DNA from: Oceanobacillus luteolus
GTDB lineage: Bacteria > Bacillota > Bacilli > Bacillales > Amphibacillaceae
Length of the DNA: 34,022 bases
Assembly: GCF_023715655.1 (NCBI RefSeq)
Contig: NZ_JAMBON010000036.1
Coordinates: 1 to 34,022 of the forward strand
Direction of reading: 5' to 3'
Shown: positions 1,571 to 28,900 of the stretch, in pieces
Position numbering within the stretch: position 1 is the first letter of the stretch
Layout: every line of letters starts with the position of its first letter
Notes under the pieces: generated by a model
Seen by the model: only the letters and a program-made list of their open reading frames with translations
The model's database searches: none
What the model was told of the DNA's origin: nothing
Made by a program: the position numbers and the translations under genes

Positions 1571-1623
1571 CTCCCCCAAAGTAAACAGATTTTTATTTTT
1601 TAATCTGTCTACTTAAAGGGGAG
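1571..1623 (-). promoter_or_regulatory. Hairpin that can hide the orfA ribosome binding site
   Basis: On the minus strand CTCCCC (1623-1618) can pair with the orfA Shine-Dalgarno region GGGGAG (1576-1571). GTAGACAGATT (1612-1602) pairs with AATCTGTTTAC (1591-1581), with one G-U wobble in RNA. The upstream arm lies at the extreme end of the element. Only transcripts entering from outside, such as read-through from the sensor kinase gene, would carry both arms. Confidence 0.6.
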
Positions 1624-1654
1624 CATATCACTATGTTGGATGTCTCTTTCATAG

Positions 1655-3727
1655 TTATTCTATATGGTATGTCTTTAATCGGATGACTGCTTTAAACAAG
1701 TCACCATCGATGTGAAGAGAAAATATTCCACCTTGCAGCTCGATTAAACTTCTTGCAATCGACAATCCGAGGCCGCTGCCTTCAGTAGTCCTAGATTCAT
1801 CTCCTCGTTTGAACCTTTCCATCAACTCGTCGGCTTTGATGTTCAATTCTGTAGCGGAGATATTTTTGAATTCAATTTGAATTTCTTCTCCCACATCTTC
1901 AATATCAATATACACCCTGGAACCTTTCAGCGTATATTTAAATATATTTGATAGTAAATTTTCAATGGAACGCCAGAGCAATCTTCCATCTGCTGTAACA
2001 TATACTTTATCTTCGGGATGGTTCATTTTAAATGTTAGGTTGTTTTCTTCAATTTTATCCGCTACTTCTCCTAATCCTTGGGTGAGCAGGGATAAGACAT
2101 CAATCTTTTCAAGCTGTACGGGAATATCACCACTGGATGCTTTCGCTGCATCAAATAAATCATCTGTTAAACCTTTTAGCCTTTTCGCTTTTTGGTCGAG
2201 AACCTCCACATAATCTTTCGCTTTCCCGGGATCTTCTTCCTGCTTTAACAGATCCACATACGTAATGATCGAAGTGAGTGGAGTTCGAATATCGTGGGAC
2301 ACATTTGTAATCAGCTCTGTTTTTAACCTTTCGCTTTTCAGCTCATTATCCACAGCGTTCTTTAATCCATCTGTGATGGTGTTGACATTTTCCGCTAACC
2401 TCGCAAATTCGCCTTTACCTTCCACATGAATACGATGATGGATATTACCTGCTTTAACTGCTGCAACACCATCTTGAATGGTTTGGAATTCTTTTACTTT
2501 CTTATAAGCGAACCAAGCTGCAATTCCAATGGTTACAGGGAACATGAAGAATGTGGCGGCAATCAGCACAGGGTATCCGATGACGATGAGTACGGTCTTG
2601 ATTCCAATATTGCCACTTCGATACACATTGGCTATGAATTGGGCTAAACGATAGATGACTTGATAAAATAATGTGTGCTTAATCAACGTATGGTTTTTAA
2701 AGTGTTTAACAAGTGACAAGATGAGTACGAAACCAATTACTGCAATTAGAATAATCATCGGAATGATGGATTGATGATTGATTTCAAGTAGAAAGTCCAA
2801 TAATACGACGAATAACGAGATTAGTGAAAAGCAGAATATAACATTCAAATCGTTGTATAATTTATCGACAAAATGAAAGTGGATCTCCTTGTCTTTAAAG
2901 GATCTTCTGCCAATTACTAAAGCAAGATATATGAATGAAAAGATAAACCCGGGCATGAACAATGTAAGTTTAAATAAGTTTTCTGCAGCGATTTCACTAT
3001 TTGCTTCCCATTGTGCTAATCGTGGAGCTAAAAATTCTTCGGTGTAGCCAAAATAAATAACCGTATTTTCCGGATTTAGTTGGTCTGTCCGTTCTGTAAG
3101 CCAGTGTATATATTGGCTTTTATTCGTTTCTCTAGGATAGGCTTCCAAGTTGTAATCCTCATAAATAAAGTACGAAGGGAGCGCTTCGAAATCATCAGAA
3201 CCTTCCAGTTTTGTGTTACTGAATTCTTTTGCACCATCTGTAGCATAGAAAAGTGGTTCCTCCACATTTTTTAGACGCTGCAATATTTTATGATATTCTC
3301 TCAGCTCATCCTGGATGAGTTGTTCTCTTGTAGATGAGATTTCTTCAGCATATTCTTTTTTGAATGTTTCATACTGCTGTTTTTCTGATTGAAAATCATC
3401 TTCATTTGAACGGTTTAAATACAGGTATTCTGAGAATAGCTCATCTTCTACTTCTTTCCATTCGTATTTATCAATCGATCCTCCATCTAAAATATGTTCC
3501 TCATTTTTATATTCCGTCATAAGACTGGTTAGGTCGTCGATCGACTGTAAACTTTCCTCCATATATGCACCACTTTGGAAATAACTCTTCTGCAGTACAC
3601 TACTATATGGAACGGTCACTATATTGACTAGTGAAGCGATGACTCCTGTAAAAAAAGCAATCATAATGAAAAAGACGATTACTTTTGTAGTATTAGAATG
3701 ACTATATTTTTTCAACTTTATATCCAA
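1655..3727 (-). CDS. Membrane sensor histidine kinase
   Basis: The product (690 aa) is a two-component sensor kinase that should phosphorylate the regulator encoded just upstream. A transmembrane segment at about 15-40 is followed by a large extracytoplasmic region (about 45-245, charged, partly coiled). A multi-span membrane block follows (about 248-270, 290-312, 318-338, 370-410). Then come a HAMP-like linker (about 415-465), the HisKA H-box VSHDIRTPLTS with His at about 478, the N-box ENLLSNIFKYT and the G-box GSGLGLSIA near the C-terminus. Its start overlaps the regulator gene by 26 bases, indicating translational coupling. The overall build resembles long VanS-like kinases of Bacillus relatives, but the signal is unknown. 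An IS3 element sits about 25 bases after the stop without damaging the gene. Confidence 0.9.
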   Translation of the reverse strand: MDIKLKKYSHSNTTKVIVFFIMIAFFTGVIASLVNIVTVPYSSVLQKSYFQSGAYMEESLQSIDDLTSLMTEYKNEEHILDGGSIDKYEWKEVEDELFSEYLYLNRSNEDDFQSEKQQYETFKKEYAEEISSTREQLIQDELREYHKILQRLKNVEEPLFYATDGAKEFSNTKLEGSDDFEALPSYFIYEDYNLEAYPRETNKSQYIHWLTERTDQLNPENTVIYFGYTEEFLAPRLAQWEANSEIAAENLFKLTLFMPGFIFSFIYLALVIGRRSFKDKEIHFHFVDKLYNDLNVIFCFSLISLFVVLLDFLLEINHQSIIPMIILIAVIGFVLILSLVKHFKNHTLIKHTLFYQVIYRLAQFIANVYRSGNIGIKTVLIVIGYPVLIAATFFMFPVTIGIAAWFAYKKVKEFQTIQDGVAAVKAGNIHHRIHVEGKGEFARLAENVNTITDGLKNAVDNELKSERLKTELITNVSHDIRTPLTSIITYVDLLKQEEDPGKAKDYVEVLDQKAKRLKGLTDDLFDAAKASSGDIPVQLEKIDVLSLLTQGLGEVADKIEENNLTFKMNHPEDKVYVTADGRLLWRSIENLLSNIFKYTLKGSRVYIDIEDVGEEIQIEFKNISATELNIKADELMERFKRGDESRTTEGSGLGLSIARSLIELQGGIFSLHIDGDLFKAVIRLKTYHIE

Positions 3728-4388
3728 CTCCCCAAACGACTTTTAAATATTTCGGCTCTTTCGGATTGATTTCGATTTTCTCTCGGATTTTCCGGATGTG
3801 CACGGCTACGGTATTCTCTGGTTGGTAGGCTGGCTCGTTCCAGACTTTTTCATAAATTTCTTCAATGGAAAATACCCGTCCAGCATTTGCAGTAAGCAGT
3901 GTCAGGATCTTGTATTGGACAGGTGTAAGATGAACTTCTTTTCCATCTGCCGTAATGCTTTTTCTTTCGTCGTCAATCACAAGGCCACCCGTTTGATAGA
4001 CGTTGTCGTTCTGTTCGAGACTTCCTAAAGTAGTGTATCTTCTTAAGTTTGCTTTTACCCTTGCAATCAGCTCCAACGGATTAAATGGCTTCGTAATATA
4101 ATCATCTGCACCTAAATTCAACCCAAGGATCTTGTCTGTATCCTCCGACTTTGCTGATAACATGATGACAGGTATATTTTTTTCTTCGCGAATTTTTCGT
4201 GTGGCCTTCATACCATCCATTACTGGCATCATGATATCCATAATAATTAAATGAATTTCATTACTTTCGATGATTTCGATAGCTTCTCCACCATGAAAAG
4301 CTTTAAAAATCGTATATCCTTCATTTTCTAAATAAATCCCAATTGCCTCAACGATTTCCTTATCGTCATCACAAATTAAGATGTTCAT
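3702..4388 (-). CDS. OmpR/PhoB-family response regulator
   Basis: The 228-aa product is a DNA-binding response regulator paired with the overlapping kinase. The receiver domain (1-~120) has acidic pocket residues D7-D9, phosphoacceptor D51 in LIIMDIMMP and K100 in YITKPF. The winged-helix Trans_reg_C domain (~130-226) ends GVGYKVEKI. The start ATG at 4388 has AGGAG 8 bases upstream. A GTG three codons earlier is too close to that site. The upstream region contains a phased series of TCTTA repeats typical of what this family binds. These probably serve autoregulation, control of the divergent gene at 4601, or both. Confidence 0.92.
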   Translation of the reverse strand: MNILICDDDKEIVEAIGIYLENEGYTIFKAFHGGEAIEIIESNEIHLIIMDIMMPVMDGMKATRKIREEKNIPVIMLSAKSEDTDKILGLNLGADDYITKPFNPLELIARVKANLRRYTTLGSLEQNDNVYQTGGLVIDDERKSITADGKEVHLTPVQYKILTLLTANAGRVFSIEEIYEKVWNEPAYQPENTVAVHIRKIREKIEINPKEPKYLKVVWGVGYKVEKI

Positions 4389-4453
4389 GAACGTCACTCC
4401 TACATCAATTTTCAGGGGCCTTTTCTCGAGCTGTCATCATCATAACAACTAAA

Positions 4454-4553
4454 TCTTAATAATCAACGAATCTATTTCTTAAGGTTTTCTTATCATTCTG
4501 CTCCTACTTCAATCTTAAGGATTTATTAAGAATTGTATACAGCTTTTCTTAAG
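4454..4553. promoter_or_regulatory. Helically phased direct-repeat array, likely response-regulator operator
   Basis: Copies of TCTTA(AG) start at 4454, 4477, 4488, 4513, 4524 (TATTAAG) and 4547, with intervals 23, 11, 25, 11 and 23. Eleven-base spacing within pairs is typical for tandem binding by OmpR/PhoB regulators. The array fills the space between the regulator gene (minus) and the peptidase-like gene (plus). Binding by this particular regulator is inferred. Confidence 0.6.
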
Positions 4554-4600
4554 TATTGTTCTCTATGCTTATTTTAACAATAGTTAAGGGGAATGAAATC

Positions 4601-5179
4601 ATGGAAGGAAAACAAATATATCTTTTATTAACGGATACAGGAACTATATTTACGAGGTTAATCAAAGCTTTTACGAAAGCACCATATAATCATGCCTCGA
4701 TTGCTTTGGATAAAGAATTAAGAGAGGTATATAGTTTTGGCAGGAAGCAGCCCAGAAATCCATTCCGTGCTGGACTTGTCAAAGAAGATACTTCTTCAAT
4801 TCTGTTTCGTCGTGCGAAATGTGCCGTCTATTCTTTAACAGTAACGGTGGAACAGTTTGAAAGGATTCAAGATTGTATTCAAAAAATGTACAAACAAAAG
4901 GAGGACTATCACTATCATCTGGCAGGATTATTTGGTGTTATGCTTAACAAGCCCATCAAAAAGAAAAATGCGTTCTTCTGTTCTCAATTTGTTGCAACTG
5001 TCTTAAAGGAATGTGGAATAATTGAAGTCGAGAATGACCTATCCCTAATCAAACCGTCGGACTTACCATTCACTGTTACATTCGAGGTGGTGTATCAAGG
5101 AAGGTTGTCGAACTATACGAATGGGTTCGATACAGAATTTGTGGCGAAGCATCGGCTTGCAACTACGATGGAAGCCTGA
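4601..5179 (+). CDS. YiiX/YebB-like NlpC/P60-superfamily cysteine hydrolase
   Basis: The 192-aa product resembles the circularly permuted papain-like (YiiX/YebB, NlpC/P60-related) group, in which a histidine precedes the cysteine. Here the His lies in APYNHASIAL near the N-terminus and the Cys in AFFCSQFVATVL in the middle. Members are thought to cleave amide or ester bonds in cell-envelope or lipid substrates, but the substrate here is unknown. There is no signal peptide. The ATG at 4601 has AAGGGGA 8 bases upstream, so an in-frame upstream ATG (4556) is less likely. The gene diverges from the two-component system across the TCTTA array, which makes it a plausible target of that regulator. 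Confidence 0.7.
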   Translation: MEGKQIYLLLTDTGTIFTRLIKAFTKAPYNHASIALDKELREVYSFGRKQPRNPFRAGLVKEDTSSILFRRAKCAVYSLTVTVEQFERIQDCIQKMYKQKEDYHYHLAGLFGVMLNKPIKKKNAFFCSQFVATVLKECGIIEVENDLSLIKPSDLPFTVTFEVVYQGRLSNYTNGFDTEFVAKHRLATTMEA

Positions 5180-12426: not shown

Positions 12427-14946
12427 TTACTCCCTCAAAAGTCTGAGGGAGTTTAAAATCACGATAAGCGCAGCACCTGTATCGCTGAGAACGGCCATCC
12501 AGAGTGTCAGCCAGCCTGGAAAAATAAGAGTCAAAGCAATAAATTTTACAATTAGAGAAAACCAGATGTTTTGCTTAATAATCGTTAATGCTTTCCTACT
12601 TAATTTAACGGTGTGTGGCAACTTTTCCAGATTATCTGCCATAAGGACAATATCTGCTGTCTCCATTGCTGTGTCGGTTCCTGCGCCACCCATAGCAATC
12701 CCTAAATCAGCGGTTGCGAGTGCGGGAGCATCATTGATTCCGTCACCAACCATAGCGACTTCATGACCTTCTTTTTGTAATTGATGAATGGCATCAACTT
12801 TATCCTCCGGTAATAGTTCTGCAAAGTAGCGATTGATACTCGATTCTTTTGAAATCACTTTGGCAGTACCTTCATTATCACCTGTTAACATCACAAGTTG
12901 ATTCACTCCAACTTGCTTCAAACCATGTAATGCTTTAACAGTAGTAGATCGAATCGTATCAGCAACAGAGATGATTCCCATTATTTCATGTTCTGTACCT
13001 ATCATTACTACTGTTTTTCCTTGTGTTTGTAGATGCTCTACCTGCGTCCTAACATGGTGGATAGGTACATTCATTTCTTCAAACAGTTTTATATTACCTG
13101 CATAATGGAATTCTCCATTGATTATTGCTTGCACACCTTTACCAACGATGTTTTTGAATGATTTTCCACTTTTAGCCTGGACTCCACTATCTTCGGCATA
13201 TTCAACAATAGCTTTTGCGATTGGGTGTGTGGAGTGATTTTCTAATGTAAAAGCTAGTGATATTAATTCATCTTCAGAAGTAGTTAGCGTTATAATATCA
13301 GAGACTTTTGGTTTACCTTCTGTTAATGTACCTGTTTTATCAAATGCAATTGCATCAATTGCACCAGCTTTCTCAAGAAAGGTCCCACCTTTGATTAAGA
13401 CACCGTTCTTTGCAGCATTTCCAATCGCCGAAACTATGGCGACTGGGGTAGAGATGACAAGTGCACACGGACAGGCGACTACCAATAATGCTAAACCTTT
13501 ATAAAACCACTCTCCCCAAGTCCCAAAGCCGAATAGGGGTGGTAGCACAATCACTGCTAATGCCAATAAAAAGACAATCGGAGTATAAATACTGGCAAAC
13601 TTATCGACAAATGCTTGGGTAGGTGCCTTTTGCTCCTGAGCTTCTTCAACTAAGTGAATGATTTTTGATAGACTTGTATCTTCAACTAGCCTAGTGACTT
13701 TCACCTCAATTGAACCACTTTCATTAATCGTACCTGCATATACCGAATCTCCAGCTGATTTATCAACGGGTATGGATTCCCCGGTGATAGGCGCTTGGTC
13801 CACACTTGTCTCGCCTTCAATGATCTCACCGTCTAAAGGGATTCGATCTCCAGGCTTAATGACAATAATCTGACCGACAGATACTTCTTCTACAGGCTTT
13901 TTAACCATATCAGATCCGATCAAAACCCATGCTTCGGATGGTGCCAAATCCATGAGGTTACGGATAGAGCTTCTAGTTTGCTCGATGGATCTGGTTTGCA
14001 GTGCATTACCTAAGGCAAATAGCCAGACGACAGTTGCACCTTCAAACCATTCTCCAATCAAAGCAGCACCAATAACAGCTGCAGACATTAAAACGTTCAT
14101 ATCCAGTGAACCGCTTTTTACCGCGTAATAAGCACTTCTTACAGGTTTATAGCCGCTTACAACAATGGCAATTGAGTATAAGATAGTGGTGATAAATGCG
14201 GATACACCGCTATAAGAGCCAATAAAGCCAAGTGCAATCAATATACCAGAGAAAGCTATTAAGCCATACCCCTGATTATTATTTGTAGTATCCCTAGTAT
14301 CACTGCTTTTTCTGATTGGTGATGCTTTAAATCCAATTTTAGCAACCTCGGAAATAATATCATCAACACTGTTCTCATGCTCCACCTTCATTTTTCCAGT
14401 GGAAAAATTGACCGTAACACTATTCACTGCAGGGACGGTATGTAAGTGATTTTCGATACTTTTCGCACAACTGCTGCAATCCATTCCAAGTACATCGTAT
14501 GTTCTGATATTACTTTTTTCAATCAGCGGTTCCGCAGAAAAACCTAACTTTTGGATTTCATTTTCCACTCTATCAAGAGAAAGGGCGTTGCTTCCTATGA
14601 TCTGTAATTTTGCAGTGTTGTAATTTACTTTAGCTTCTTGAATATCATTAAGGCGGTTAAGGCCTTTTTCAATCGTTAAGGCACATGAAGGACAATCCAT
14701 TCCATAAATCCGGTATTCAATCTTTTCAGCTTCTGTAACCGATGGGCCGTTGTTTGATGTTTTTTCAACCTCATTGTTGCAACAATCCATTGGGCCCGGA
14801 ATACCATCATTGTCAGTACTACTACAACACGATGAATTTGTTGCAGTAACAGCTATTCCATTGACCGACTTTTGACTGCTGCAACAACTATTTTGATCTT
14901 CCATGGTCTTCATTTCATTGTTTGTACCACAGCATTTATCCGCCAT
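12427..14946 (-). CDS. cadA: CadA-type Cd2+/Zn2+/Pb2+ exporting P-type ATPase
   Basis: The product (839 aa) is a P1B heavy-metal ATPase that pumps soft divalent metals out of the cell. Two HMA domains carry GMDC-x-x-C sites at C85/C88 and C157/C160. The membrane metal site is the CPC in LLVVACPCALVIST (about 490-495), the phosphorylation motif is DKTGTLT (about 535), and the hinge motif is GDGINDAPALA. The CPC plus two GMDCxxC domains fit the Cd/Zn/Pb class. The first 60 residues are unusual, with four Cys-Cys pairs at 5-6, 21-22, 40-41 and 55-56, which could form an extra metal-binding tail. AAGGGTGA precedes the ATG. The ArsR-type regulator ends 14 bases upstream, so the two form an operon. 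Confidence 0.93.
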   Translation of the reverse strand: MADKCCGTNNEMKTMEDQNSCCSSQKSVNGIAVTATNSSCCSSTDNDGIPGPMDCCNNEVEKTSNNGPSVTEAEKIEYRIYGMDCPSCALTIEKGLNRLNDIQEAKVNYNTAKLQIIGSNALSLDRVENEIQKLGFSAEPLIEKSNIRTYDVLGMDCSSCAKSIENHLHTVPAVNSVTVNFSTGKMKVEHENSVDDIISEVAKIGFKASPIRKSSDTRDTTNNNQGYGLIAFSGILIALGFIGSYSGVSAFITTILYSIAIVVSGYKPVRSAYYAVKSGSLDMNVLMSAAVIGAALIGEWFEGATVVWLFALGNALQTRSIEQTRSSIRNLMDLAPSEAWVLIGSDMVKKPVEEVSVGQIIVIKPGDRIPLDGEIIEGETSVDQAPITGESIPVDKSAGDSVYAGTINESGSIEVKVTRLVEDTSLSKIIHLVEEAQEQKAPTQAFVDKFASIYTPIVFLLALAVIVLPPLFGFGTWGEWFYKGLALLVVACPCALVISTPVAIVSAIGNAAKNGVLIKGGTFLEKAGAIDAIAFDKTGTLTEGKPKVSDIITLTTSEDELISLAFTLENHSTHPIAKAIVEYAEDSGVQAKSGKSFKNIVGKGVQAIINGEFHYAGNIKLFEEMNVPIHHVRTQVEHLQTQGKTVVMIGTEHEIMGIISVADTIRSTTVKALHGLKQVGVNQLVMLTGDNEGTAKVISKESSINRYFAELLPEDKVDAIHQLQKEGHEVAMVGDGINDAPALATADLGIAMGGAGTDTAMETADIVLMADNLEKLPHTVKLSRKALTIIKQNIWFSLIVKFIALTLIFPGWLTLWMAVLSDTGAALIVILNSLRLLRE

Positions 14947-18829: not shown

Positions 18830-20236
18830 ATGGCACAACAAATTGGTGTAATCGGCTTAGCGGTAATGGGTAAAAACTTGGCTTTAAATATTGAAAGCAG
18901 AGGGTATTCTGTATCGGTGTTCAACCGAACATTTGCAAAAACCGAGGAATTCTTGGCAAATGAAGCAAAAGGCAAGAATTTCGTTGGAGCGGAGACAATT
19001 GAAGAATTTGTTAACTCCCTTGAAAAGCCGCGTAAAATCATGTTGATGGTGAAAGCAGGCCCGGCTACCGATGCAACAATTGAGTCGTTGCAACCTTATC
19101 TAGAAGAAGGCGATATCCTGATTGATGGCGGGAATACGCTTTATGAAGATACAATGCGCCGTAATAAAATGCTTGACGAAACAGGTATCCACTTTATCGG
19201 TACGGGAGTATCAGGTGGGGAAGAAGGTGCTTTAAATGGACCATCCCTTATGCCTGGCGGACAAAAGGAAGCATATGAACTTGTTGCTCCTATCTTTGAA
19301 GCAATCTCCGCAAAAGTAGATGGAGATCCATGTGTTACTTACATTGGACCAAATGGTGCGGGACATTTTGTGAAAATGGTACATAACGGAATTGAGTACG
19401 GTGATATGCAACTCATTGGTGAGTCATACTTCATCTTGAAATATGTTCTTGGTATGGAAGCGGAAGAGCTTAGTGAAGTATTTACAGAGTGGAATAAAGG
19501 CGAATTGGATAGTTATCTGATTGAAATTACTGCAGATATTTTCACGAAGAAAGATGAAGAAACTGGTCAGCCATTAGTGGAAGTCATTATGGACAAGGCT
19601 GGTCAGAAAGGTACTGGTAAATGGACTAGTAAAAATGCACTTGATTTAGGGGTTCCACTTCCATTGATTACGGAGTCAGTATTTGCACGATTCATTTCAT
19701 CTTTGAAGGACGAGCGTGTAGCGGCAAGTAAAGTATTATCTGGTCCATCAGCAACGAAATACGAAGGTGACCGTACAGAGTTGATTGAAAAAGTCCGTAA
19801 AGCTCTTTACATGAGTAAAATCGTATCCTATGCTCAAGGATTTGCCCAAATGCGTGCAGCATCTGAGGAGAATGATTGGAATCTTGAGTTTGGTGACATT
19901 GCGATGATTTGGCGTGGAGGATGTATCATCCGTGCAAACTTCTTGCAAAAAATCAAAGAAGCGTACGACCGTGAGCCGAACTTAGCTAACTTGATGCTAG
20001 ATCCTTACTTTAAAGAAATTGTAGAAGGTTATCAAGAAGCATTACGTGAAGTAGTTGCTTTGGCTATCCAACACGGAATTGCTGTGCCGACATTCTCAAG
20101 TGCAATTGCATACTATGACAGCTATCGTGCTGCTGATCTGCCAGCAAATCTTATCCAAGCACAGCGTGATTACTTTGGTGCACATACGTACGAACGAAAA
20201 GATAAAGAAGGTACATTCCATACAAACTGGTTTTAA
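18830..20236 (+). CDS. gnd: 6-phosphogluconate dehydrogenase (decarboxylating)
   Basis: The 468-aa enzyme oxidises and decarboxylates 6-phosphogluconate to ribulose-5-phosphate in the oxidative pentose phosphate pathway. The N-terminal Rossmann motif is [21 protein letters not shown]. Substrate-site blocks are [12 protein letters not shown] and [16 protein letters not shown], which contains the catalytic lysine. The C-terminal tail is [19 protein letters not shown]. Length and wording match the Bacillus GndA/GntZ type. It has its own promoter and strong terminator. Because the neighbouring cluster ends in gluconokinase, whose product is this enzyme's substrate, the location is probably functional: it would drain gluconate carbon into pentose phosphate metabolism. 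Confidence 0.97.
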
Positions 20237-20368: not shown

Positions 20369-21541
20369 TTACGCTATAACTTTTTCTTTTGGAAATATTA
20401 CTTCATCGACTTCAAAGAAGTTTTGAATGGCGAGTGCGCATGCACCTAGTACACTTGCATCTTTTCCTAAATCGGACAGGACAATTTGTTGATAAACACT
20501 TACTGAAGAGCGTAGATTTTCTTCAATTTCCTGAATTGCGTTTGGATATAGCTTTAACAATTCACTATTTATAATCAACATCTCCGGGTTATATGAATTG
20601 ATCATATTATTTAGTCCGATTGAAACATATAGAATAAAAGTTTTCATTATGTCAATGGTGGTGGAATCATTTGCTTCGATTAATTGTCTAATATCTTCAT
20701 AGCTTAAATTCGGACGGTCCAGTCTTTCCATTAACTGAGAAAAGGCGACAGGTTCCGCGGCGTAAAGTTCCCAACATCCTTGGTTTCCACACTTACACTC
20801 GCCTCCGTAAGGGGAGATAATCATATGTCCAATTTCCCCAGCATACCCATCACGTCCTTTAATGAGTTTTCCATCATTTATAATTCCTGCACCAATACCT
20901 GAGCTGAGCACGATTCCTAATATATTATCGCTTTCTGGAAATTGGTAAACCCTTTCGGCGTATACAGATAGGTTAGCGGTATTTTCGATTGAAATATTCA
21001 TATCGATAACACGTTCAAGATCCGCTTTTAAATCCTTATTCGTCCATTCCAGTCTCGGAATAAATTGAATCCATTCGTCATTATTTACAGTACCATGAAC
21101 ACCGATGATTGTTTGAACAAGCCCAAAATGACATGCGGAATATTTTTGTTTGTACTTTTGAATGTGTTCACTGAGGATTTCAACGATTTCCTCATAAACC
21201 TCAGTATCTATTATTTCTATTTCTGTTTCGATTAGATTTCCTTGTAGGTCAGATATACGATATTTAATTTCCTTATAATCAAGATCGATGCCTAAAACAT
21301 AGCCGGCACTACCATTAATCGATAGCATGATTGGTCTTCTTCCAACAGTATGGTGTTCCATCTGTGTTTCGGTTATTAGCTTTTCATCGATCAATTCAGC
21401 AACTTGGGCTGAAATGGTAGCTTTGTTTAAACCGGTAATTTTAGAGATTTCCGCTCTTGAAATCAGTCCATGTTGAATAATCTTTTGTAAAATAAGTCCT
21501 CTATTTAGTTTTTTTATGTATGCACTATCCCCTGTAACCAT
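20369..21541 (-). CDS. XylR-like ROK-family transcriptional repressor (copy 1)
   Basis: The product (390 aa) has an N-terminal winged helix (about 10-65, ISRAEISKITGLNKATISAQ) and a ROK sugar-sensing domain with the zinc-binding CKCGNQGCWELYAAE motif and phosphate-loop-like GIVLSSGIGAGIIN. Non-enzymatic ROK proteins of this layout (XylR, NagC) repress sugar operons until a sugar or sugar acid binds. ATG at 21541 has GGGGG 7 bases upstream; a longer frame to 21613 would run through the operator. A TTTGTTTAGCGAACAAA palindrome lies in its own leader and recurs before uxaC, suggesting autoregulation and control of the hexuronate genes. It is a close paralogue of the next gene. Confidence 0.88.
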   Translation of the reverse strand: MVTGDSAYIKKLNRGLILQKIIQHGLISRAEISKITGLNKATISAQVAELIDEKLITETQMEHHTVGRRPIMLSINGSAGYVLGIDLDYKEIKYRISDLQGNLIETEIEIIDTEVYEEIVEILSEHIQKYKQKYSACHFGLVQTIIGVHGTVNNDEWIQFIPRLEWTNKDLKADLERVIDMNISIENTANLSVYAERVYQFPESDNILGIVLSSGIGAGIINDGKLIKGRDGYAGEIGHMIISPYGGECKCGNQGCWELYAAEPVAFSQLMERLDRPNLSYEDIRQLIEANDSTTIDIMKTFILYVSIGLNNMINSYNPEMLIINSELLKLYPNAIQEIEENLRSSVSVYQQIVLSDLGKDASVLGACALAIQNFFEVDEVIFPKEKVIA

Positions 21542-21581
21542 GTTGTATCCCCCTTTTATGTATGACAATATTCTATCTCCC

Positions 21582-21606
21582 ATTATTTGTTTAGCGAACA
21601 AATAAT
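21582..21606. promoter_or_regulatory. ROK/XylR-type operator upstream of copy 1
   Basis: Ten-base perfect arms ATTATTTGTT and AACAAATAAT enclose TAGCG. The core TTTGTTTAGCGAACAAA matches the uxaC site (TTTGTTTGGCAAACAAA) at 15 of 17 positions and resembles the Bacillus xylose operator. It lies downstream of the promoter at 21623-21651. Confidence 0.72.
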
Positions 21607-21622
21607 ACAACATGCCATTTTA

Positions 21623-21651
21623 AATTTATCACTATGATAACAGGTTGTAAA
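21623..21651 (-). promoter_or_regulatory. Promoter of ROK copy 1
   Basis: On the minus strand TTTACA (21651-21646), a 17-base spacer and TAAATT (21628-21623). A cre-like site covers the -35 and the ROK operator follows the expected start point. Confidence 0.5.
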
Positions 21652-21659
21652 GGCTTTCA
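21646..21659 (-). promoter_or_regulatory. cre-like catabolite control site
   Basis: The minus strand reads TGAAAGCCTTTACA, 13 of 14 positions of the CcpA consensus TGWAANCGNTNWCA (C instead of G in the central CG). It overlaps the -35 box of ROK copy 1. Confidence 0.45.
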
Positions 21660-21828
21660 AACTGTAACGTTATTTACTAATACCATTATAGCAAATAATG
21701 AACTATGTAATGTGGAATCAAGTGAAATAATAGTGGAACATTAGATTAGTTTATTATTATATTCCAAACAAAGTAATTCAGAAAATATGGTGCAAAGGGC
21801 ATCTCCTTGTTTGAACCTACTATTATAT

Positions 21829-22983
21829 TTATTGAAATATAACCTCTGATACATCAAGGAAGTTTTGAATAGCTAGCGAACATGCTCCTAATACACTCGC
21901 ATCTTTGCCTAGATTAGATAAGACGATTTTTTGATAAATACTAACAGATGAACGGAGGCTTTGTTCTATTTCTTTAATTGCATTCGGGTAAAGCTTTAAT
22001 AATTCGCTGTTAATAATTAATTTTTCAGGATTATAGGAATTAATCATATTATTTAATCCAATCGATACATAATGAATAAAGTTTTTCATGATTTGTTTTG
22101 TTGTAAGGTCGTTCGCCGCAAGTAATTTCTTTATATCAGCATAGTTTAGATATTGTCGATCAAGCTTCTTCATTAACATATGGTACACCGCAGGTTCTGC
22201 AGCATAAAGTTCCCAGCAACCGTGGTTACCACAACTGCATTTATTCCCATAAGGGGAAATGATCATATGACCAATTTCTCCAGCATAACCATCATGGCCT
22301 TTGGTTAGGCTCCCATCACTAATGATTCCCGCACCTATCCCGGAACTGAGTACGATTCCTAATAGGTTATCACTCTCTGGATATTGATAAACTCTTTCAG
22401 CATATACGGAGAGATTGGCAGTGTTTTCGATAGAAACAGTTATGTCAATTGCACGCTCAATATCTGCTTTCAGATTCTTATCGGTCCATTGTAATCGAGG
22501 GATAAATTGAATCTGTTCATTATTATTTACGGTACCGTGAACGCCGATAATTGTCTGCACAAGTCCGTAAGTACAATCGGCATAATCATCTTTATATTGC
22601 TTGATTTCTGCTATAAGGATATCGACAACTTCTTCATACCGCTCTGTGTCCAATTCAGCGGTTTTCGTCTCTATTAAATTGCCTTGCAGACTGGAAATGC
22701 GATAAATAATTTCTTTATAGTCAAGGTCGATTCCAAGTACATAACCGGCTCTGCCATTAACTGAAAGCATAATAGGCCTTCTGCCTACTGAATGATGCTC
22801 CAGTTGGGTTTCCTTAACGAGATTTTCATTGAGCAAATCAGAAACTTGTACGGATACAGTCGCTTTATTCAGACCTGTTATTTTAGCAAGTTCCGCTCGA
22901 GAAACAAATCCGCGCTCAATAATCTTTTGTAAAATAATCCTTCTGTTTAATTTCTTTATGTATGCGCCATCCCCTGTAACCAT
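21829..22983 (-). CDS. XylR-like ROK-family transcriptional repressor (copy 2)
   Basis: The 384-aa paralogue of the preceding gene shares long identical blocks from the start (MVTGDGAYIKKLNR) through the HTH (SRAELAKITGLNKATVS), the ROK core (GIVLSSGIGAGII) and the zinc motif CSCGNHGCWELYAAEP. Differences concentrate in the middle linker and the C-terminal helices. GGGGGAGG precedes the ATG. The gene diverges from uxaC, the classic position of a local repressor. The two copies have the same orientation, pointing to a tandem duplication. Whether they share ligand and operator is not visible. Confidence 0.88.
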   Translation of the reverse strand: MVTGDGAYIKKLNRRIILQKIIERGFVSRAELAKITGLNKATVSVQVSDLLNENLVKETQLEHHSVGRRPIMLSVNGRAGYVLGIDLDYKEIIYRISSLQGNLIETKTAELDTERYEEVVDILIAEIKQYKDDYADCTYGLVQTIIGVHGTVNNNEQIQFIPRLQWTDKNLKADIERAIDITVSIENTANLSVYAERVYQYPESDNLLGIVLSSGIGAGIISDGSLTKGHDGYAGEIGHMIISPYGNKCSCGNHGCWELYAAEPAVYHMLMKKLDRQYLNYADIKKLLAANDLTTKQIMKNFIHYVSIGLNNMINSYNPEKLIINSELLKLYPNAIKEIEQSLRSSVSIYQKIVLSNLGKDASVLGACSLAIQNFLDVSEVIFQ

Positions 22984-23095: not shown

Positions 23096-23124
23096 TTGAA
23101 AAGTAAAGCGTTTACATGTACTAT
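23096..23124 (+). promoter_or_regulatory. Promoter of uxaC with embedded cre-like site
   Basis: TTGAAA (23096-23101), a 17-base spacer and TACTAT (23119-23124) form the promoter. The spacer contains GTAAAGCGTTTACA (23103-23116), 12 of 14 positions of the cre consensus and nearly palindromic, placed where CcpA would block transcription. Confidence 0.6.
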
Positions 23125-23142
23125 GAATATAGAACATTTTTG

Positions 23143-23159
23143 TTTGTTTGGCAAACAAA
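23143..23159. promoter_or_regulatory. ROK/XylR-type operator of uxaC
   Basis: TTTGTTTGGCAAACAAA is a perfect 17-base palindrome about a central G, 18 bases after the -10 box and before the ribosome binding site. Position and sequence resemble the Bacillus xylose operator. Confidence 0.78.
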
Positions 23160-23206: not shown

Positions 23207-24619
23207 ATGAAAACGTTTATAACCGATGATTTTTTATTGTACAATGATACCGCCCGTAAGTTATACCACGATACTGCTAAGGATTTGCCTATTATTGATT
23301 ATCATAACCATTTAAACCAACATGAAATACTTGCAGATAAAAATTATGAAAACTTAGCTGAAATTTGGTTGGGTGGAGATCATTATAAATGGAGAGCAAT
23401 GCGTGCGAATGCAATTTCCGAAGATTACATAACTGGTGATAAGCCCGCTTATGAAAAGTTTCTTGCTTGGGCAAAAACAGTACCTAATACACTAGGTAAT
23501 CCGCTATATCATTGGACACATTTGGAACTGCTCCGCTATTTTGATATTGATGAATTACTAAATGAAAAGTCAGCTCCAGCCATTTGGGAAGCGGCTAATG
23601 CAAAACTATCGACTCCGCAAATGTCTGCAAGAAACCTACTGAAAAACAAAAAAGTGGAATTTGTTGGAACAACGGATGACCCAACAGATGATCTAAAGGC
23701 GCATCAGGCACTCGCAAAAACGGATTATTCTGTAACAGTCTCTCCTTCCTTCCGCCCGGATAAAGGGTTAGCGATTGAAAATGAAGACTTCCTTCCATGG
23801 GTGGAAAAGTTGGAATCTGTAACAAATCAATCCATTGAAAACTATGATGCATTTCTCGATGCTCTATCCAGTCGTGTCGATTACTTTGATAAGCATGGCT
23901 GCCGTAGTTCTGATCATGGAATTAATGTGATATTTTATGAGAATGCAACGAAAGATGAAGTAGCCGGAATCTTTACGAAACGATTGAAGGGTGAATCCTT
24001 AACAGCTGCTGAAGTTGAACAATACAAAACGTATACCTTAGTATTCCTTGGAGAATTATATGCTGATAAAGGCTGGGCAATGCAGCTGCATATTAATCCA
24101 CTGAGAAATAACAGCACACGTATGTTTAAGTTGTTAGGACCAGATACTGGCTTTGACTCCATTGGAGATCACTTGCTGGCAGATAAGCTTTCAAACTTAC
24201 TTGATGCGATGGACGTTAAGGACAAACTTCCTAAAACGGTTCTATATAGTTTAAACTCTCGTGACAATAATATACTGGCTGCCATGGCTGGAAACTTCCA
24301 AAGTGATGAGGTCCCTGGAAAGGTTCAATTTGGAACTGCATGGTGGTTTAATGACACCATCGATGGAATGGAAGATCAAATGAAAACATTAGCGAATATT
24401 GGACTTATTAGTAACTTTATCGGAATGCTTACTGATTCTAGAAGCTTTCTTTCTTTCCCAAGACACGAATACTTCCGAAGAATTTTATGTAATATCTTAG
24501 GGGCTTGGGTAGAGGAAGGCAAGGCGCCGAATGATTTAGAACTATTGAGTACATACGTGCGCAATATCTGCTATGAAAATGCAAAGCGCTATTTCAACTT
24601 CGAACCTAAAAGCAACTAA
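23207..24619 (+). CDS. uxaC: Glucuronate (uronate) isomerase
   Basis: The product (470 aa) converts D-glucuronate to D-fructuronate, and D-galacturonate to D-tagaturonate, the first intracellular step of hexuronate use. It shows the amidohydrolase-like metal motif LPIIDYHNHLNQHEI (H33, H35). Family blocks GTTDDPTD, FRPDKGLAIEN, GWAMQLHINPLRNNSTRMF and DSRSFLSFPRHEYFRRILC are all in the expected order, and full length is typical. ATG at 23207 follows GGCAGGAG closely. It has its own promoter, operator and terminator, so it is transcribed separately from the genes at 24987-28853 although they likely serve the same pathway. Confidence 0.97.
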   Translation: MKTFITDDFLLYNDTARKLYHDTAKDLPIIDYHNHLNQHEILADKNYENLAEIWLGGDHYKWRAMRANAISEDYITGDKPAYEKFLAWAKTVPNTLGNPLYHWTHLELLRYFDIDELLNEKSAPAIWEAANAKLSTPQMSARNLLKNKKVEFVGTTDDPTDDLKAHQALAKTDYSVTVSPSFRPDKGLAIENEDFLPWVEKLESVTNQSIENYDAFLDALSSRVDYFDKHGCRSSDHGINVIFYENATKDEVAGIFTKRLKGESLTAAEVEQYKTYTLVFLGELYADKGWAMQLHINPLRNNSTRMFKLLGPDTGFDSIGDHLLADKLSNLLDAMDVKDKLPKTVLYSLNSRDNNILAAMAGNFQSDEVPGKVQFGTAWWFNDTIDGMEDQMKTLANIGLISNFIGMLTDSRSFLSFPRHEYFRRILCNILGAWVEEGKAPNDLELLSTYVRNICYENAKRYFNFEPKSN

Positions 24620-24682
24620 AATTGGTCAAGAAGTTGCGTTTATTTCAATACGTAAACAAAGTGAATAGTTTTTTACTATCTG

Positions 24683-24726
24683 AACAAGGACCAATGCATC
24701 GTTTGAATATGCGTTAGTCCTTGTTT
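24683..24726 (+). terminator. Terminator of uxaC
   Basis: AACAAGGAC pairs with GTCCTTGTT. Further pairing of AATGCAT with ATGCGTT occurs inside, and TTTT follows. Confidence 0.75.
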
Positions 24727-24797
24727 TGAACTCGAATGCAGCATCTAAGTCCTATACTTTACGTCTTTTGTTTGTTGCGATAAATGCCAATTTTTAA

Positions 24798-24826
24798 TTG
24801 ACGATATATGTATAAAGTGTTAAGGT
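24798..24826 (+). promoter_or_regulatory. Candidate promoter for the LarA-like gene
   Basis: TTGACG (24798-24803), 17 bases and TAAGGT (24821-24826). The -10 is weak. The degenerate operator follows at almost the same distance as in uxaC. Confidence 0.35.
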
Positions 24827-24840
24827 ATATTTGTAATTAA

Positions 24841-24857
24841 TTTATCCGGTAAACAAA
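24841..24857. promoter_or_regulatory. Degenerate ROK-type operator before the LarA-like gene
   Basis: TTTATCCGGTAAACAAA keeps the right half (AAACAAA) and outer TTT of the uxaC operator, with AATTT/AAATT flanks, but the left arm is changed. It would place the second transcription unit under the same repressor with lower affinity. Confidence 0.4.
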
Positions 24858-24986
24858 TTAAATGAGCTCAAAATTCACTTTTTTGAGAGAAATGAAAGGG
24901 ATTACAATAACCCCTTATAAAATACCCGATGTAAGGGTATACGATTATAATAAGATTAATGAATGATAAACTGGAGGTCGTGAAAA

Positions 24987-26255
24987 ATGGGTATTCTCCA
25001 TGAATTACTGAAAGATATTCCGATACCAAAGATGGCGAAGGTCCGTCAATCGTTTTCAGACGAGAAAATTGAAGATGTACCGGGAACTCTGAAACAGGAA
25101 TTGGAAAAAGAAGGCGTCGCTGAATTTGTGAAGCCGGGAATGGAAATCGCAATTGCTGTTGGTTCAAGAGGAACTGATAGATTAGTGGATGTCACACGAG
25201 TAACGGTTGAATTCTTAAAAGAACTTGGTGCAAAGCCATTCATCGTTCCGTCAATGGGAAGTCATGGCGGTGCTACAGCTGAGGGCCAAAAGGCAGTGCT
25301 TGAGCATCTTGGTGTGACAGAAGAGACGGTGGGAGCGGAAATCCGTTCATCAATGGAAGTCATCCAGATTGGGCAATTGGAAAATGGATTACCGGTATAT
25401 ATTGATAAATTTGCATCCGAAGCAGATGGAATTGTTGTCATTAACCGTGTTAAGCCTCATACGGCATTCCGTGGTCCGGTTGAAAGTGGAATCATGAAGA
25501 TGATCAGTATTGGGCTAGGAAAGCAAAAAGGTGCAGAAGCCTGCCACCAAATGGGCTTCAAGTACATGGCGGAAAACATTCCAAAGATGGCGAGGATTGC
25601 TTTGGAAAAAATGCCGATATTATTTGCTGTAGCAACGGTTGAGAATGCTTTTGACAAAGTGGCGGAAATTGCCGTGCTTAAACCAGAGGAAATTGAAGAG
25701 CGGGAAATTGAATTGCAGAAGCTCGCGAAAAAGCTATTACCGAAACTGCATTTTGATAAAATAGACGTCCTGATTATCGATGAGATTGGAAAAAACATCA
25801 GTGGGGATGGAATGGATCCGAATATTACGGGGAGATATCCGACACCATACGCTTACGGCGGACCTGAAGTAACGAAAATGGCAGTTCTCGATCTTACTTC
25901 TGCATCAGAAGGAAATGCGAATGGAGTTGGGACTGCTGACTTTACAACAGAACGACTCGTGAATAAAATGGATCGCCACGGAACATATGCAAATGGTTTA
26001 ACATCAACAGTTGTTGGACCTACCCATATCTCAACTACATTGGAAAACGATAAGCAAGCCTTCCAGGCGGCAATCAAAACGGCGAATATCCTCGATTTTA
26101 CAAAGGTGACCGTTGTCCGAATCAAGAATACGTTGGAATTGGCTGAAATAGAAGTATCCGAAACACTGCTTGACCATGTGAAGGACCATCCGGAACTTGA
26201 ACAAATTTCTGATGTATATGAATTGGAATTTGATGAGAACGGAAACCTATTTTAA
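24987..26255 (+). CDS. LarA-family (DUF2088) nickel-pincer racemase/epimerase homologue
   Basis: The product (422 aa) has the size of lactate racemase LarA and its LarA_N/DUF2088 organisation. Residues matching known LarA cofactor and catalytic positions are present at nearly the same spacing: R61 (GSRG), H93 (MGSHGG), H158 (VKPHTAFRG), K171 (GIMKMISIG) and H187 (EACHQ), aligning with LarA R75, H108, H174, K184 and H200. The nickel-pincer nucleotide, bound through the lysine and second histidine pair, should therefore be usable. LarA homologues racemise or epimerise 2-hydroxyacids, and D-gluconate 2-epimerisation has been described for some. Between uxaC, a UxuB-like reductase and gluconokinase, interconversion of D-mannonate and D-gluconate is the most economical proposal. 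No larB, larC or larE is in the window. GGAGG lies 9 bases before the ATG. Confidence 0.82.
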   Translation: MGILHELLKDIPIPKMAKVRQSFSDEKIEDVPGTLKQELEKEGVAEFVKPGMEIAIAVGSRGTDRLVDVTRVTVEFLKELGAKPFIVPSMGSHGGATAEGQKAVLEHLGVTEETVGAEIRSSMEVIQIGQLENGLPVYIDKFASEADGIVVINRVKPHTAFRGPVESGIMKMISIGLGKQKGAEACHQMGFKYMAENIPKMARIALEKMPILFAVATVENAFDKVAEIAVLKPEEIEEREIELQKLAKKLLPKLHFDKIDVLIIDEIGKNISGDGMDPNITGRYPTPYAYGGPEVTKMAVLDLTSASEGNANGVGTADFTTERLVNKMDRHGTYANGLTSTVVGPTHISTTLENDKQAFQAAIKTANILDFTKVTVVRIKNTLELAEIEVSETLLDHVKDHPELEQISDVYELEFDENGNLF

Positions 26256-26365
26256 TTCATAAAACTCTTTCATGCTTCATTGGAGCGGGTTGTGGCTGCG
26301 CTAAAAAGATTCGTGAAATTTTTATCTAAATGATCCGAGAAAAACTAGAAAAGGTGAGGGAAACG

Positions 26366-27136
26366 ATGACAAACTTATTTGATCTAACAGGAAAAACGGC
26401 AGTTGCTTTTGGTGGAAACAGTACATTAGGCAGCGCAATCGCGAAAGGCTTTGCGGAACAAGGAGCACGAGTTGCAATCGTAGGAAGAAACCTTGAAACT
26501 GCAAAAGAAGTTGCTGAAGAAATTAATGCAGCCGGTGGAGATGCAGCTGCTTTCTACGGAGACGTAAGCAAACTTGAAACAGTTACAGAAGCTGCTAATC
26601 AAATTGAAGAGTGGGCTGGTGGCTGGGATATTCTCTTGAATGCCCCGGGGAAAAATAGCTCTACACCATTTTTCGATCTTACTCCTGAAGAATGGGATGA
26701 CATCATGTCCGTCAACTTGAAAGGCCTTGTATTTACAACACAAGTCTTTGCTAAGAAAATGATTGAACAAGAAAGACCAGGAAGCATCATTAATATTTCT
26801 TCTGTATCTTCTGGTCCACCATTATCACGCGTGTTTACGTACTCTACTTCAAAAGCTGGTGTAAACAGTGTGACACAGTACTTGGCTCGTGAATTTGCTC
26901 CACACGGTATTCGGGTTAATGGAATCATTCCAGGTTTCTTCCCGGCTGAACAAAACCGTAAAATCTTGGATGAAGAACGAATTGAAAACATTATGCGCCA
27001 TACACCAATGAACCGTTTTGGTGAAGCGGAAGAGTTAAAAGGAGCTGCCATTTACTTAGCTTCTGATAAAGCATCATCTTTCGTAACAGGAACCTTCGTA
27101 CGTGTAGATGGCGGTTACGGAAGCATGACAATCTAA
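26366..27136 (+). CDS. SDR-family oxidoreductase, probable D-mannonate oxidoreductase (UxuB-like)
   Basis: The product (256 aa) is a classical short-chain dehydrogenase. The nucleotide motif is FGGNSTLGSAIAKGFAEQG (G16-x5-G22). LLNAPGKN replaces the usual NNAG. The catalytic residues are N117, S146, Y159 and K163 (YSTSKAG). In Bacillus the hexuronate pathway uses an SDR (UxuB/YjmF) to reduce D-fructuronate to D-mannonate, and this protein has the same character. ATG at 26366 follows GGTGAGGG; an upstream frame from 26330 lacks a site. It lies 110 bases after the LarA-like gene with no terminator between, so co-transcription is likely. Specificity is inferred from context. Confidence 0.8.
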   Translation: MTNLFDLTGKTAVAFGGNSTLGSAIAKGFAEQGARVAIVGRNLETAKEVAEEINAAGGDAAAFYGDVSKLETVTEAANQIEEWAGGWDILLNAPGKNSSTPFFDLTPEEWDDIMSVNLKGLVFTTQVFAKKMIEQERPGSIINISSVSSGPPLSRVFTYSTSKAGVNSVTQYLAREFAPHGIRVNGIIPGFFPAEQNRKILDEERIENIMRHTPMNRFGEAEELKGAAIYLASDKASSFVTGTFVRVDGGYGSMTI

Positions 27137-27371
27137 TAAAGCGTACGAAAACGGGTCTTTTCAATCCATACTTCGTTACGTAGACGATTTCCAACCCCTG
27201 ACCACAAAGGGTTTAGAAGAAAGGTTTTGAGGGAGGCGTAACTTCTTCAAAGCCTTTTCTATTGCGGCGATATGAAAATCATCAACTATATCATGTAATA
27301 TTTATATGAATACAAATTTACGTGGGGTAGCTCCTCGAATAACGTATCCCACAATCTAAAGGATGAGGACA

Positions 27372-28853
27372 ATGAAAGAAAAACTAGTTATTGGTTTAGA
27401 TATAGGAACAACTAGCGCAAAGGCTGTTGTTTTTGATAAAAAAGGTAAGCTGATCACGGAAGCGGAAGAGCTTGTAACTACATATTATCCGAAACAAGGT
27501 TATGCAGAACAAGACCCTAAGGAAGTTGAGGCAGCTGCAAGAAAAGTGATGAAGCAAGTCATTGGCTCTGTGGATGAATCCAACTATGAATTGGTGGCAA
27601 CAGGTTTTTGTACTGCTATGCATTCCTTGATTTGTGTGGATGAAAAGGGAGAGCCCTCATCCAATATGCTGATTTGGTCGGATGGCCGCGCGAATGCACA
27701 GGCAGAACGACTAGAAGCTGAAAAAGGCAAAGAGATTTTTTCGCGGACTGGAACTCCAATCCACCCAATGACTCCACTAACAAAGTTAATATGGATGCGG
27801 GAAAATAAAGATTCTGCTTACGAACAAGCAACGTATTTCATGACAATGAAAGAATATCTAGTTTATCATTGGTTCGGAGAGCGTGTGATTGATTATGCAA
27901 TGGCTTCTTCGACAGGTTTCTTCGATGTTAGTAACAGAGTATGGGATGCTGAGGCATTGGAGCTCGCTGGAATAACTGAATCCCAGTTAGCGGATGTTGT
28001 AGAGCCGACATGGGAGTTATCCGAGCTAGTCCCAGAATTGAAGGATGCTTTGGATGTACCGGATGGTCATCGATTTATTATCGGCTCTGCGGACGGCCAG
28101 CTTGCGAATCTTGGAAGCGGTGCAACATCAACAGGTGAGGTTAATATTTCTGTCGGTACGAGTGGAGCGATTCGACAATTTGTCGAAGGTGCACCAATCA
28201 ATGAGAAAATGGAGACATTCACCTATGCATTTTCCAAGGATACATCGATTATTGGCGGACCTACTAATAATGGCGGTATTGTACTGCAATGGTTTAAGGA
28301 CGTAATCAAGTTTCCTGGTGACTATACAGAACTGATTGAAGAAGCTAAGGATGTGCCGGCGGGAGCAAACGGTATACTTTTTCTTCCATATGTTAATGGA
28401 GAGCGTGCACCACTATGGAATCAGCAGGCGTCAGGGAACTTTTATGGGCTTCAAGTCGAGCATACTCGTGCTGAAATGACACGTGCAGTCTTGGAAGGGA
28501 TTGCTTTTAACATTTACCAAATCAACCGTTCATTGGAGACATTGGCCGGAAAACCGAAGAAGGTTACAGTGAATGGTGGTCTGACCCGTTCTTCAATCTG
28601 GGTACAAATACTAGCTGACATTCTCGGTGAAGATCTCTACTTCTCAGAAACTCACCACAATGCAGCTTGGGGTGCAGCGTGGGTAGCGCTTGTCGCCATT
28701 GGAGAAGCGTCATCGTTCCGTGCGATTAAAGAGAACCTACCTGGAGAAATAAAAATCACCTCCAATAAACAAAATCATGAGCTATACCAAAAAGTTTATC
28801 AAAGATATGAAAAGCTTGGCCAAGCTGTCACTGCTTTATTTGATGAAATCTGA
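27372..28853 (+). CDS. gntK: Gluconokinase (FGGY family)
   Basis: The 493-aa product phosphorylates D-gluconate to 6-phosphogluconate. The N-terminal FGGY motif is IGLDIGTTSAKAVVFD. GntK-like blocks include GFCTAMHSLICVDEKG, FSRTGTPIHPMTPLTKLIW, VIDYAMASSTGFFDV, NISVGTSGAIRQF and GGPTNNGGIVLQWFKD. The C-terminal block is GERAPLWNQQASGNFYGLQ. These match Bacillus gluconate kinase better than xylulokinase, which it might be mistaken for. The ATG at 27372 has GGATGAGG at suitable distance. It ends the putative LarA-like/SDR/GntK transcription unit and is closed by a strong terminator. No gluconate permease is adjacent, so its gluconate may be generated internally. Confidence 0.9.
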   Translation: MKEKLVIGLDIGTTSAKAVVFDKKGKLITEAEELVTTYYPKQGYAEQDPKEVEAAARKVMKQVIGSVDESNYELVATGFCTAMHSLICVDEKGEPSSNMLIWSDGRANAQAERLEAEKGKEIFSRTGTPIHPMTPLTKLIWMRENKDSAYEQATYFMTMKEYLVYHWFGERVIDYAMASSTGFFDVSNRVWDAEALELAGITESQLADVVEPTWELSELVPELKDALDVPDGHRFIIGSADGQLANLGSGATSTGEVNISVGTSGAIRQFVEGAPINEKMETFTYAFSKDTSIIGGPTNNGGIVLQWFKDVIKFPGDYTELIEEAKDVPAGANGILFLPYVNGERAPLWNQQASGNFYGLQVEHTRAEMTRAVLEGIAFNIYQINRSLETLAGKPKKVTVNGGLTRSSIWVQILADILGEDLYFSETHHNAAWGAAWVALVAIGEASSFRAIKENLPGEIKITSNKQNHELYQKVYQRYEKLGQAVTALFDEI

Positions 28854-28865
28854 TGGATTTATGGG

Positions 28866-28900
28866 GAACCAGCTTCTTATGAGAAGAGCTGGTTCTTTTT
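28866..28900 (+). terminator. Terminator after gntK
   Basis: GAACCAGCT and AGCTGGTTC form a perfect 9-base stem with inner CTTCT/AGAAG pairing, followed by TTTTTATT. Confidence 0.9.

Follow-up and report, generated by a model that had tools for sequence, protein, structure and literature searches.

A group 22 LarA homologue proposed as a D-mannonate/D-gluconate 2-epimerase in a hexuronate gene cluster of Oceanobacillus luteolus

Organization of the Locus

The window considered here, NZ_JAMBON010000036.1 positions 1-34,022 of Oceanobacillus luteolus (the whole stretch of DNA analyzed, whose numbering is used for all coordinates below), contains, in this order, gnd, two ROK repressor genes, uxaC, a gene for a LarA-like protein, a short-chain dehydrogenase/reductase (SDR) gene and an FGGY kinase gene (Table 1). 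An initial annotation had interpreted this cluster as a route from glucuronate to ribulose-5-phosphate in which mannonate is epimerized to gluconate instead of being dehydrated. The genes, including the nearby gnd, lie where it had placed them, its uronate isomerase and LarA-family protein both score above the respective family cut-offs, and its interpretation is supported by the sequence comparisons described below. The closest named relative is Oceanobacillus alkalisoli, whose LarA-like protein is 88% identical.

Table 1. Features of the hexuronate cluster and its surroundings (bit scores, with family cut-offs in parentheses)
Feature	Position	Strand	Evidence
gnd, decarboxylating NADP-dependent 6-phosphogluconate dehydrogenase	18830..20236	+	TIGR00873 774.9 (426.7); NF006765 792.6 (413)
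Strong hairpin 3' of gnd	20290-20321		Fold computation
ROK-family repressor	20369..21541	-	PF00480 174.4; HTH_24 match slightly below cut-off; start set at inner ATG (MVTGDSAY...), open reading frame opens at 21613
Second ROK-family repressor, divergent from uxaC	21829..22983	-	PF00480 180.7
17-base palindrome TTTGTTTGGCAAACAAA, candidate ROK operator, between ROK gene and uxaC	23143..23159		Pattern search
uxaC, uronate isomerase (glucuronate to fructuronate)	23207..24619 (ATG 23207, stop 24619)	+	PF02614 712.8; NF002794 glucuronate isomerase 644.2 (387)
Hairpin 3' of uxaC, possible terminator	24679..24729	+	Fold -21.7 kcal/mol, z -4.4; missed by terminator scan
LarA-superfamily group 22 isomerase, proposed D-mannonate/D-gluconate 2-epimerase	24987..26255	+	Lar_N 42.5 (23.3); NF052515 559.4 (400)
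SDR, proposed fructuronate reductase (UxuB-like)	26366..27136	+	Best family D-mannonate oxidoreductase PRK08277, 265.3-265.7 (281)
FGGY kinase, proposed gluconokinase	27372..28853 (another ATG at 27363)	+	TIGR01314 430.5 (648.55); next XylB 341.8
Hairpin and U-run 3' of kinase, likely terminator	28865..28896	+	Fold -16.6 kcal/mol, z -4.6; missed by terminator scan

The LarA-Like Protein and Its Relatives

The LarA-like protein belongs to NF052515, nickel pincer cofactor-dependent isomerase group 22, and its family membership was decided by fold comparison, as its predicted model has the LarA fold. Against solved structures, a direct sequence search gave no match at E 0.001 and a profile search returned a single lactate racemase (E 0.21) amid chance matches. 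A local profile alignment to LarA succeeded (E 1.2e-5, probability 81); global profile alignment placed only 7 columns. In the profile alignments, the catalytic His108 and His174 of LarA correspond to H93 and H158, and the cofactor residues Arg75, Lys184 and His200 to R61, K171 and H187, all of which are kept in 102/102 group-22 sequences. The second histidine and the lysine lie 3 residues farther apart than in LarA.

Group-22 loci were split at 62% identity to the window protein, those above being termed clade A (77 loci, window excluded) and the remainder clade B (25 loci). Clade A, represented by 23 of the 56 rows of a tree (the window included), forms a single branch there (SH-aLRT support 97), whereas clade B, which is paralogous to clade A, does not form one branch. 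A sister branch to clade A occurs in several families of the class (L093, L139, L180, L181, L183, L186 and L188); its members L093 and L139, which share 55% and 51% identity with the window protein, have neighbors different from those of clade A.

Conservation of the Gene Set

Recurrence of the uxaC/larA-like/SDR/gntK arrangement, which the initial annotation had proposed to check, is borne out. On the same strand downstream of the group-22 larA (larA22), an SDR gene is found within 3 kb in 72/77 clade-A loci and a kinase gene within 6 kb in 69/77, and neither is found in any of the 25 clade-B loci; an arrangement that recurs in dozens of loci is more than chance. Five clade-A loci lack the SDR gene: three (L013, L028 and L152) stop at a contig edge, and two (L105 and L029) show none in the available DNA. 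In a Paenibacillaceae locus (L030), the genes for UxaE, LarA22, kinase, SDR and Gnd are consecutive. Since Thermotoga gntE is reported to lie between the fructuronate reductase and gluconate kinase genes (accessible text of PMC6978723), L030 represents a set of this kind in which the LarA belongs to another group. The name UxaE (tagaturonate epimerase) comes from a scan of the homologue in L002 (PF16257, 671.6 bits); homologues occur in 8 loci, including L002 and L030, and not in the window.

Other genes also recur beside the cluster. Two Gfo/Idh/MocA-type oxidoreductase genes, two genes for xylose-isomerase-like TIM barrels and an AraC-type gene are present in 9-12 of 32 loci, located before larA22 (L005, L009, L012 and similar loci). 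Three of these were named by family scan and two by eye, and they perhaps play a role in glucuronide release.

Absence of Mannonate Dehydratase

As the initial annotation had stated, the cluster contains no uxuA, kdgK or kdgA, i.e., no gene for mannonate dehydratase, 2-keto-3-deoxygluconate (KDG) kinase or 2-keto-3-deoxy-6-phosphogluconate (KDPG) aldolase. Extended to the whole genome, which is 99.94% complete, this holds for uxuA, for which no match (PF03786) was found, and not for the other two genes. A search of the genome for a mannonate dehydratase of another type, from the enolase superfamily, showed none: of the three MR_MLE matches, one is menC (family scan), the second resembles a shorter menC copy and the third is enolase (both by eye). 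Genome-wide absence of kdgK and kdgA was rejected, as a kdgA-type and a kdgK-like gene are present on contig C184 (L157), where the aldolase scores over the eda cut-off and the kinase best matches KDG kinases (229.4, cut-off 400). These genes cluster there with HxlA and, by eye, with HxlB-like, RpiA-like and TRAP (tripartite ATP-independent periplasmic) transporter genes, which indicates another sugar-acid route. Given that the genome lacks uxuA, the kdgA-type and kdgK-like genes of C184 would receive no mannonate.

Group 22 scores over the cut-off in 54 of 159 genomes of the family; matches to UxuA occur in 76 (full-length in 70) and to UxaC in 77. All 23 genomes that carry uxaC without a full-length uxuA have clade A, as do 21 of the 54 that carry both genes and 2 of the 82 without uxaC, namely G059 (73% complete) and G096, whose gene is without SDR and kinase. 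Fisher's test gives p values of 9.7e-8 and 9e-16 for this distribution, kinship ignored, and a count at the level of genera, in which a genus may sit in more than one cell and the 23 genomes span 9 genera, gives p = 1.3e-4. When G052 (broken genes), G055 (83% complete) and G184 (frameshifted copy) are dropped, clade A is still found in 20/20 genomes. Clade B shows no link to uxaC, being present in 10/77 genomes with uxaC vs. 9/82 without it. A second set, made up of the window's own genome and 30 reached through the loci (31 in all, the L002 genome not included), contained 11 genomes with a UxuA match, two of these matches being partial. The distribution supports the idea that clade A would take the place of uxuA where the latter is missing.

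Genes for Cofactor Synthesis

The initial annotation made its route dependent on larB, larC and larE, and these genes are present: LarE, LarC1, LarB and LarC2 all score over their cut-offs on contig C165, separate from the window, and the window protein is the sole Lar_N match in the same genome. LarC accompanies clade A in 45/46 genomes of the family vs. 5/113 of the others, and is found in 31/31 genomes of the second set. In some loci the lar genes lie within the cluster itself, as in L009, which has the order larA22-SDR-larE-kinase-larB-larC1-larC2-transketolase (larE named by family scan, larB and larC by likeness to the named L055 genes, the transketolase by eye), with similar arrangements in other loci.

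In Lactobacillus, LarC is made by frameshift joining of its halves. In L055 (positions 1590-4779), larB separates the larC1 gene from the larC2 gene, and in L092, L098 and L131 the two lie kilobases apart (tblastn), so that LarC cannot be made there by frameshift joining of neighboring halves.

Proposed Route and Its Alternatives

Considering the gene families, the conserved residues and the distribution of the set, we infer that LarA22 probably acts on mannonate and gluconate and that the cluster encodes a hexuronate route ending in the pentose-phosphate pathway, a reading in which we place fairly good confidence. UxaC would convert D-glucuronate to D-fructuronate, which the SDR would reduce to D-mannonate. 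The group-22 LarA, loaded with the nickel-pincer nucleotide made by LarB, LarC and LarE, would then invert C2 of D-mannonate, via a hydride passed to the cofactor and returned, to yield D-gluconate. Finally, the FGGY kinase would phosphorylate D-gluconate to 6-phosphogluconate, from which Gnd would produce ribulose-5-phosphate, CO2 and NADPH.

Several observations weigh against this route, beginning with the active site. In a solved relative, Lys298 and Gln295 of LarA contact the carboxylate of the substrate (accessible text of PMC11851776). Clade A has Pro285 and Gly282 at the aligned positions, in a stretch whose alignment is uncertain (predicted local distance difference test below 50 at model positions 270-275); Arg/Lys283, present in 101/102 sequences, might serve as a substitute. 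Asp72 of LarA, which binds the cofactor ribose, is without a counterpart in the clade A alignment. Additionally, the signature of GntE (LarA groups 18-20), an E followed by V or S after the second histidine (PMC7583248 and PMC11770544, accessible text), is not shared by the window protein, which has T159 and A160 there; around the positions of Trp358 and Thr359 (A and H in GntE) the alignment is unreliable. On the side of the survey, the 21 genomes that carry uxuA together with clade A indicate that clade A is not only a replacement, and the counts lean on related genomes.

A second group of such observations concerns the SDR and the kinase, which the initial annotation had called UxuB-like and gluconokinase. 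In each case the named family is indeed the best match, and in each case the score falls below the cut-off (Table 1); both names are therefore best guesses by score and not passed memberships. Among the SDR counterparts, that of L009 scores over the PRK08277 cut-off (290.8), and those of L002 (265.7) and L030 (264.1) score below it. For PRK08277, two SDRs adjoining uxuA (L034 and L036) reach 458.7 and 440.3, vs. ~265 for the window SDR; for the gluconate 5-dehydrogenase family they reach only 165-167, vs. 219-220 for the window SDR, which is therefore no plain UxuB. It is 42-43% identical to these two, with which it has the stretch PGFFxxEQNR in common. Sequence evidence on the SDR substrate is thus mixed, which leaves some room for the same net route in another order, in which LarA would act at C2 of D-fructuronate (5-keto-D-mannonate), giving 5-keto-D-gluconate, which the SDR would reduce to gluconate as a gluconate 5-dehydrogenase. 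Chemically this is feasible, fructuronate being a 2-hydroxy acid as well; gluconate 5-dehydrogenase is the second-best family of the SDR, and larA22 lies directly 5' of the SDR gene in most loci. However, the SDR scores better as a D-mannonate oxidoreductase, the PGFFxxEQNR stretch points the same way (in a comparison that covered uxuA-adjoining SDRs), and L029 and L105 have clade A without an SDR, which makes this order unlikely.

As for the kinase, the counterparts of four relatives score 439.8, 451.6, 482.5 and 625.5 for the gluconokinase family, the last being that of L030, and all fall under the cut-off as the window kinase does. The distance of the window kinase from this cut-off, together with the mannonate kinase and 6-phosphomannonate 2-epimerase activities present in extracts of Lactobacillus suebicus (genes given as unknown in the accessible text of PMC6978723), would fit a kinase acting first, on mannonate, and a LarA acting as 6-phosphomannonate 2-epimerase. 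Nevertheless, gluconokinase is still the best kinase family and is closely approached by L030, the LarA substrates named in the accessible text of the literature found are unphosphorylated, and three loci (L024, L122 and L129) have no kinase downstream. Moreover, the clade-A LarA of L029, a locus from Clostridia, lies without an FGGY kinase amid genes for an altronate/galactarate-type dehydratase, a KDPG aldolase, a KDG-type kinase, an IlvD-type dehydratase and a galactonate dehydratase, and therefore an unphosphorylated hexonate is favored as the substrate. Phosphorylation before epimerization is thus distinctly unlikely.

That L029 and L105 carry clade A without an SDR or a kinase also counts against the five-step route. 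LarA could instead work on another sugar acid of the operon (e.g., altronate/allonate or galactonate/talonate) while mannonate goes elsewhere, in line with the galactonate dehydratase gene that adjoins larA22 in L029, the UxaE homologues in some loci and the ability of UxaC to isomerize galacturonate as well. We consider this improbable, as mannonate would then be left with no known exit in the 23 genomes lacking a full-length uxuA, and as the kinase and Gnd require gluconate.

Lastly, no LarB, LarC or LarE scores over the cut-off in G033, a genome without uxuA in which clade A, the SDR and the kinase are present and uxaC lies on a different contig, nor in six of the eight genomes that have clade B only (G124, G126, G128, G132, G133 and G177). 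Group 22 may therefore not always need a home-made cofactor. The group-22 LarA proteins of these seven genomes keep the nickel and cofactor residues. A group-22 protein that works without the nickel-pincer cofactor and catalyzes something else would account for these genomes and is very improbable given the near-constant presence of LarC with clade A, the cofactor-binding lysine and nickel-binding histidine kept in every group-22 sequence, and the lar genes inside the cluster in many loci.

Outside clade A, a subset of clade B termed B1 (L090, L100, L115, L117, L118 and L120) has the group-22 LarA gene after genes for a GntP-type permease, a PrpR_N regulator, a D-threonate-kinase-like protein (345.5 bits, cut-off 450) and a PdxA-type dehydrogenase, the families having been scanned on L090. 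These neighbors suggest that the B1 LarA is a D-erythronate/D-threonate 2-epimerase. It can be proposed, tentatively and with rather less than even confidence, that group 22 consists of sugar-acid 2-epimerases distinct from GntE, among which clade A would act on hexonates and spare many Bacillaceae the mannonate dehydratase, and B1 would interconvert D-erythronate and D-threonate, so that one pathway for four-carbon acids serves both.

Relation to Known Systems

The idea of such a route is not new, and this kind of system is known. For Thermotoga maritima, a route from mannonate to gluconate had been put forward in 2012 (cited in the accessible text of PMC6978723 and PMC7583248), and the epimerization by other LarA groups was measured in 2020 (PMC7583248). 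Enzymes for which it has been measured are GntE1 and GntE2 and, later, LarAH15 and LarAH10 (PMC7583248 and PMC11770544, accessible text). GntE2 of T. maritima (LarAH20; PDB 4NAR) is a D-gluconate 2-epimerase with a proposed hexuronate route; it belongs to LarA group 20, whereas the window protein belongs to group 22, is 14% identical to it and does not share the GntE residues after the second histidine. Furthermore, Thermotoga also has uxuA (control search), unlike the window genome. A second parallel is found in L. suebicus, whose mannonate kinase and 6-phosphomannonate 2-epimerase likewise link UxaC-type hexuronate breakdown to 6-phosphogluconate (PMC6978723, accessible text), although epimerization there follows phosphorylation. 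With the canonical UxaC-UxuB-UxuA-KdgK-KdgA pathway the proposed route would have the first two steps in common, differing in that it involves no dehydration and ends in ribulose-5-phosphate, CO2 and NADPH.

Functions have been predicted for about half of the LarA family, in figures and supplement (PMC11770544, accessible text). The name of NF052515 states no substrate, and the family spans at least two kinds of gene neighborhood (clades A and B). No substrate for group 22 is given in the accessible text of the literature found, which includes PMC7583248, PMC11770544, PMC6978723, PMC3750489, PMC3245297, PMC12611868, PMC11796402 and PMC11851776, with figures and supplementary gene-context tables outside its scope. 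What appears to be new is that the step would be filled by a very distant LarA group without an assigned substrate. Within the literature covered, the lineage of the host and the substitution for uxuA appear new as well. If correct, the proposal would provide a testable function for this group of nickel-cofactor enzymes and would explain how glucuronate could be used by many Bacillaceae that have uronate isomerase but no mannonate dehydratase. The gene set uxaC, larA22, SDR, gntK, gnd and larBCE would then send hexuronates to the pentose-phosphate pathway, bypassing the Entner-Doudoroff exit.

Regulation and Other Features of the Window

ROK repressors probably control the cluster. The sequence upstream of uxaC listed in Table 1 is a perfect palindrome, and its pattern (at most 1 mismatch, spacer 0-8) recurs within 350 bases upstream of larA in 39/77 clade-A loci, compared with 7/222 control pieces and 0/25 clade-B loci, a combination that suggests regulation by ROK proteins. 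A further operator-like site with 1 mismatch (21586-21602) lies just upstream of the ROK gene at 20369..21541, and a ROK gene is found near many clade-A loci. On the larB/C/E contig, the pattern was not found with up to 2 mismatches. Near 23103-23117 there is a candidate cre-like site, which may serve carbon catabolite control. Promoter and terminator scans of the window gave no excess over shuffled sequences (22 vs. 26.9 and 5 vs. 6.6, respectively). The two ROK genes (20369-22983) are similar and adjacent and appear, by eye, to be a tandem duplication. Farther upstream, the window also encodes a heavy-metal P-type ATPase with HMA domains (12427-14946).

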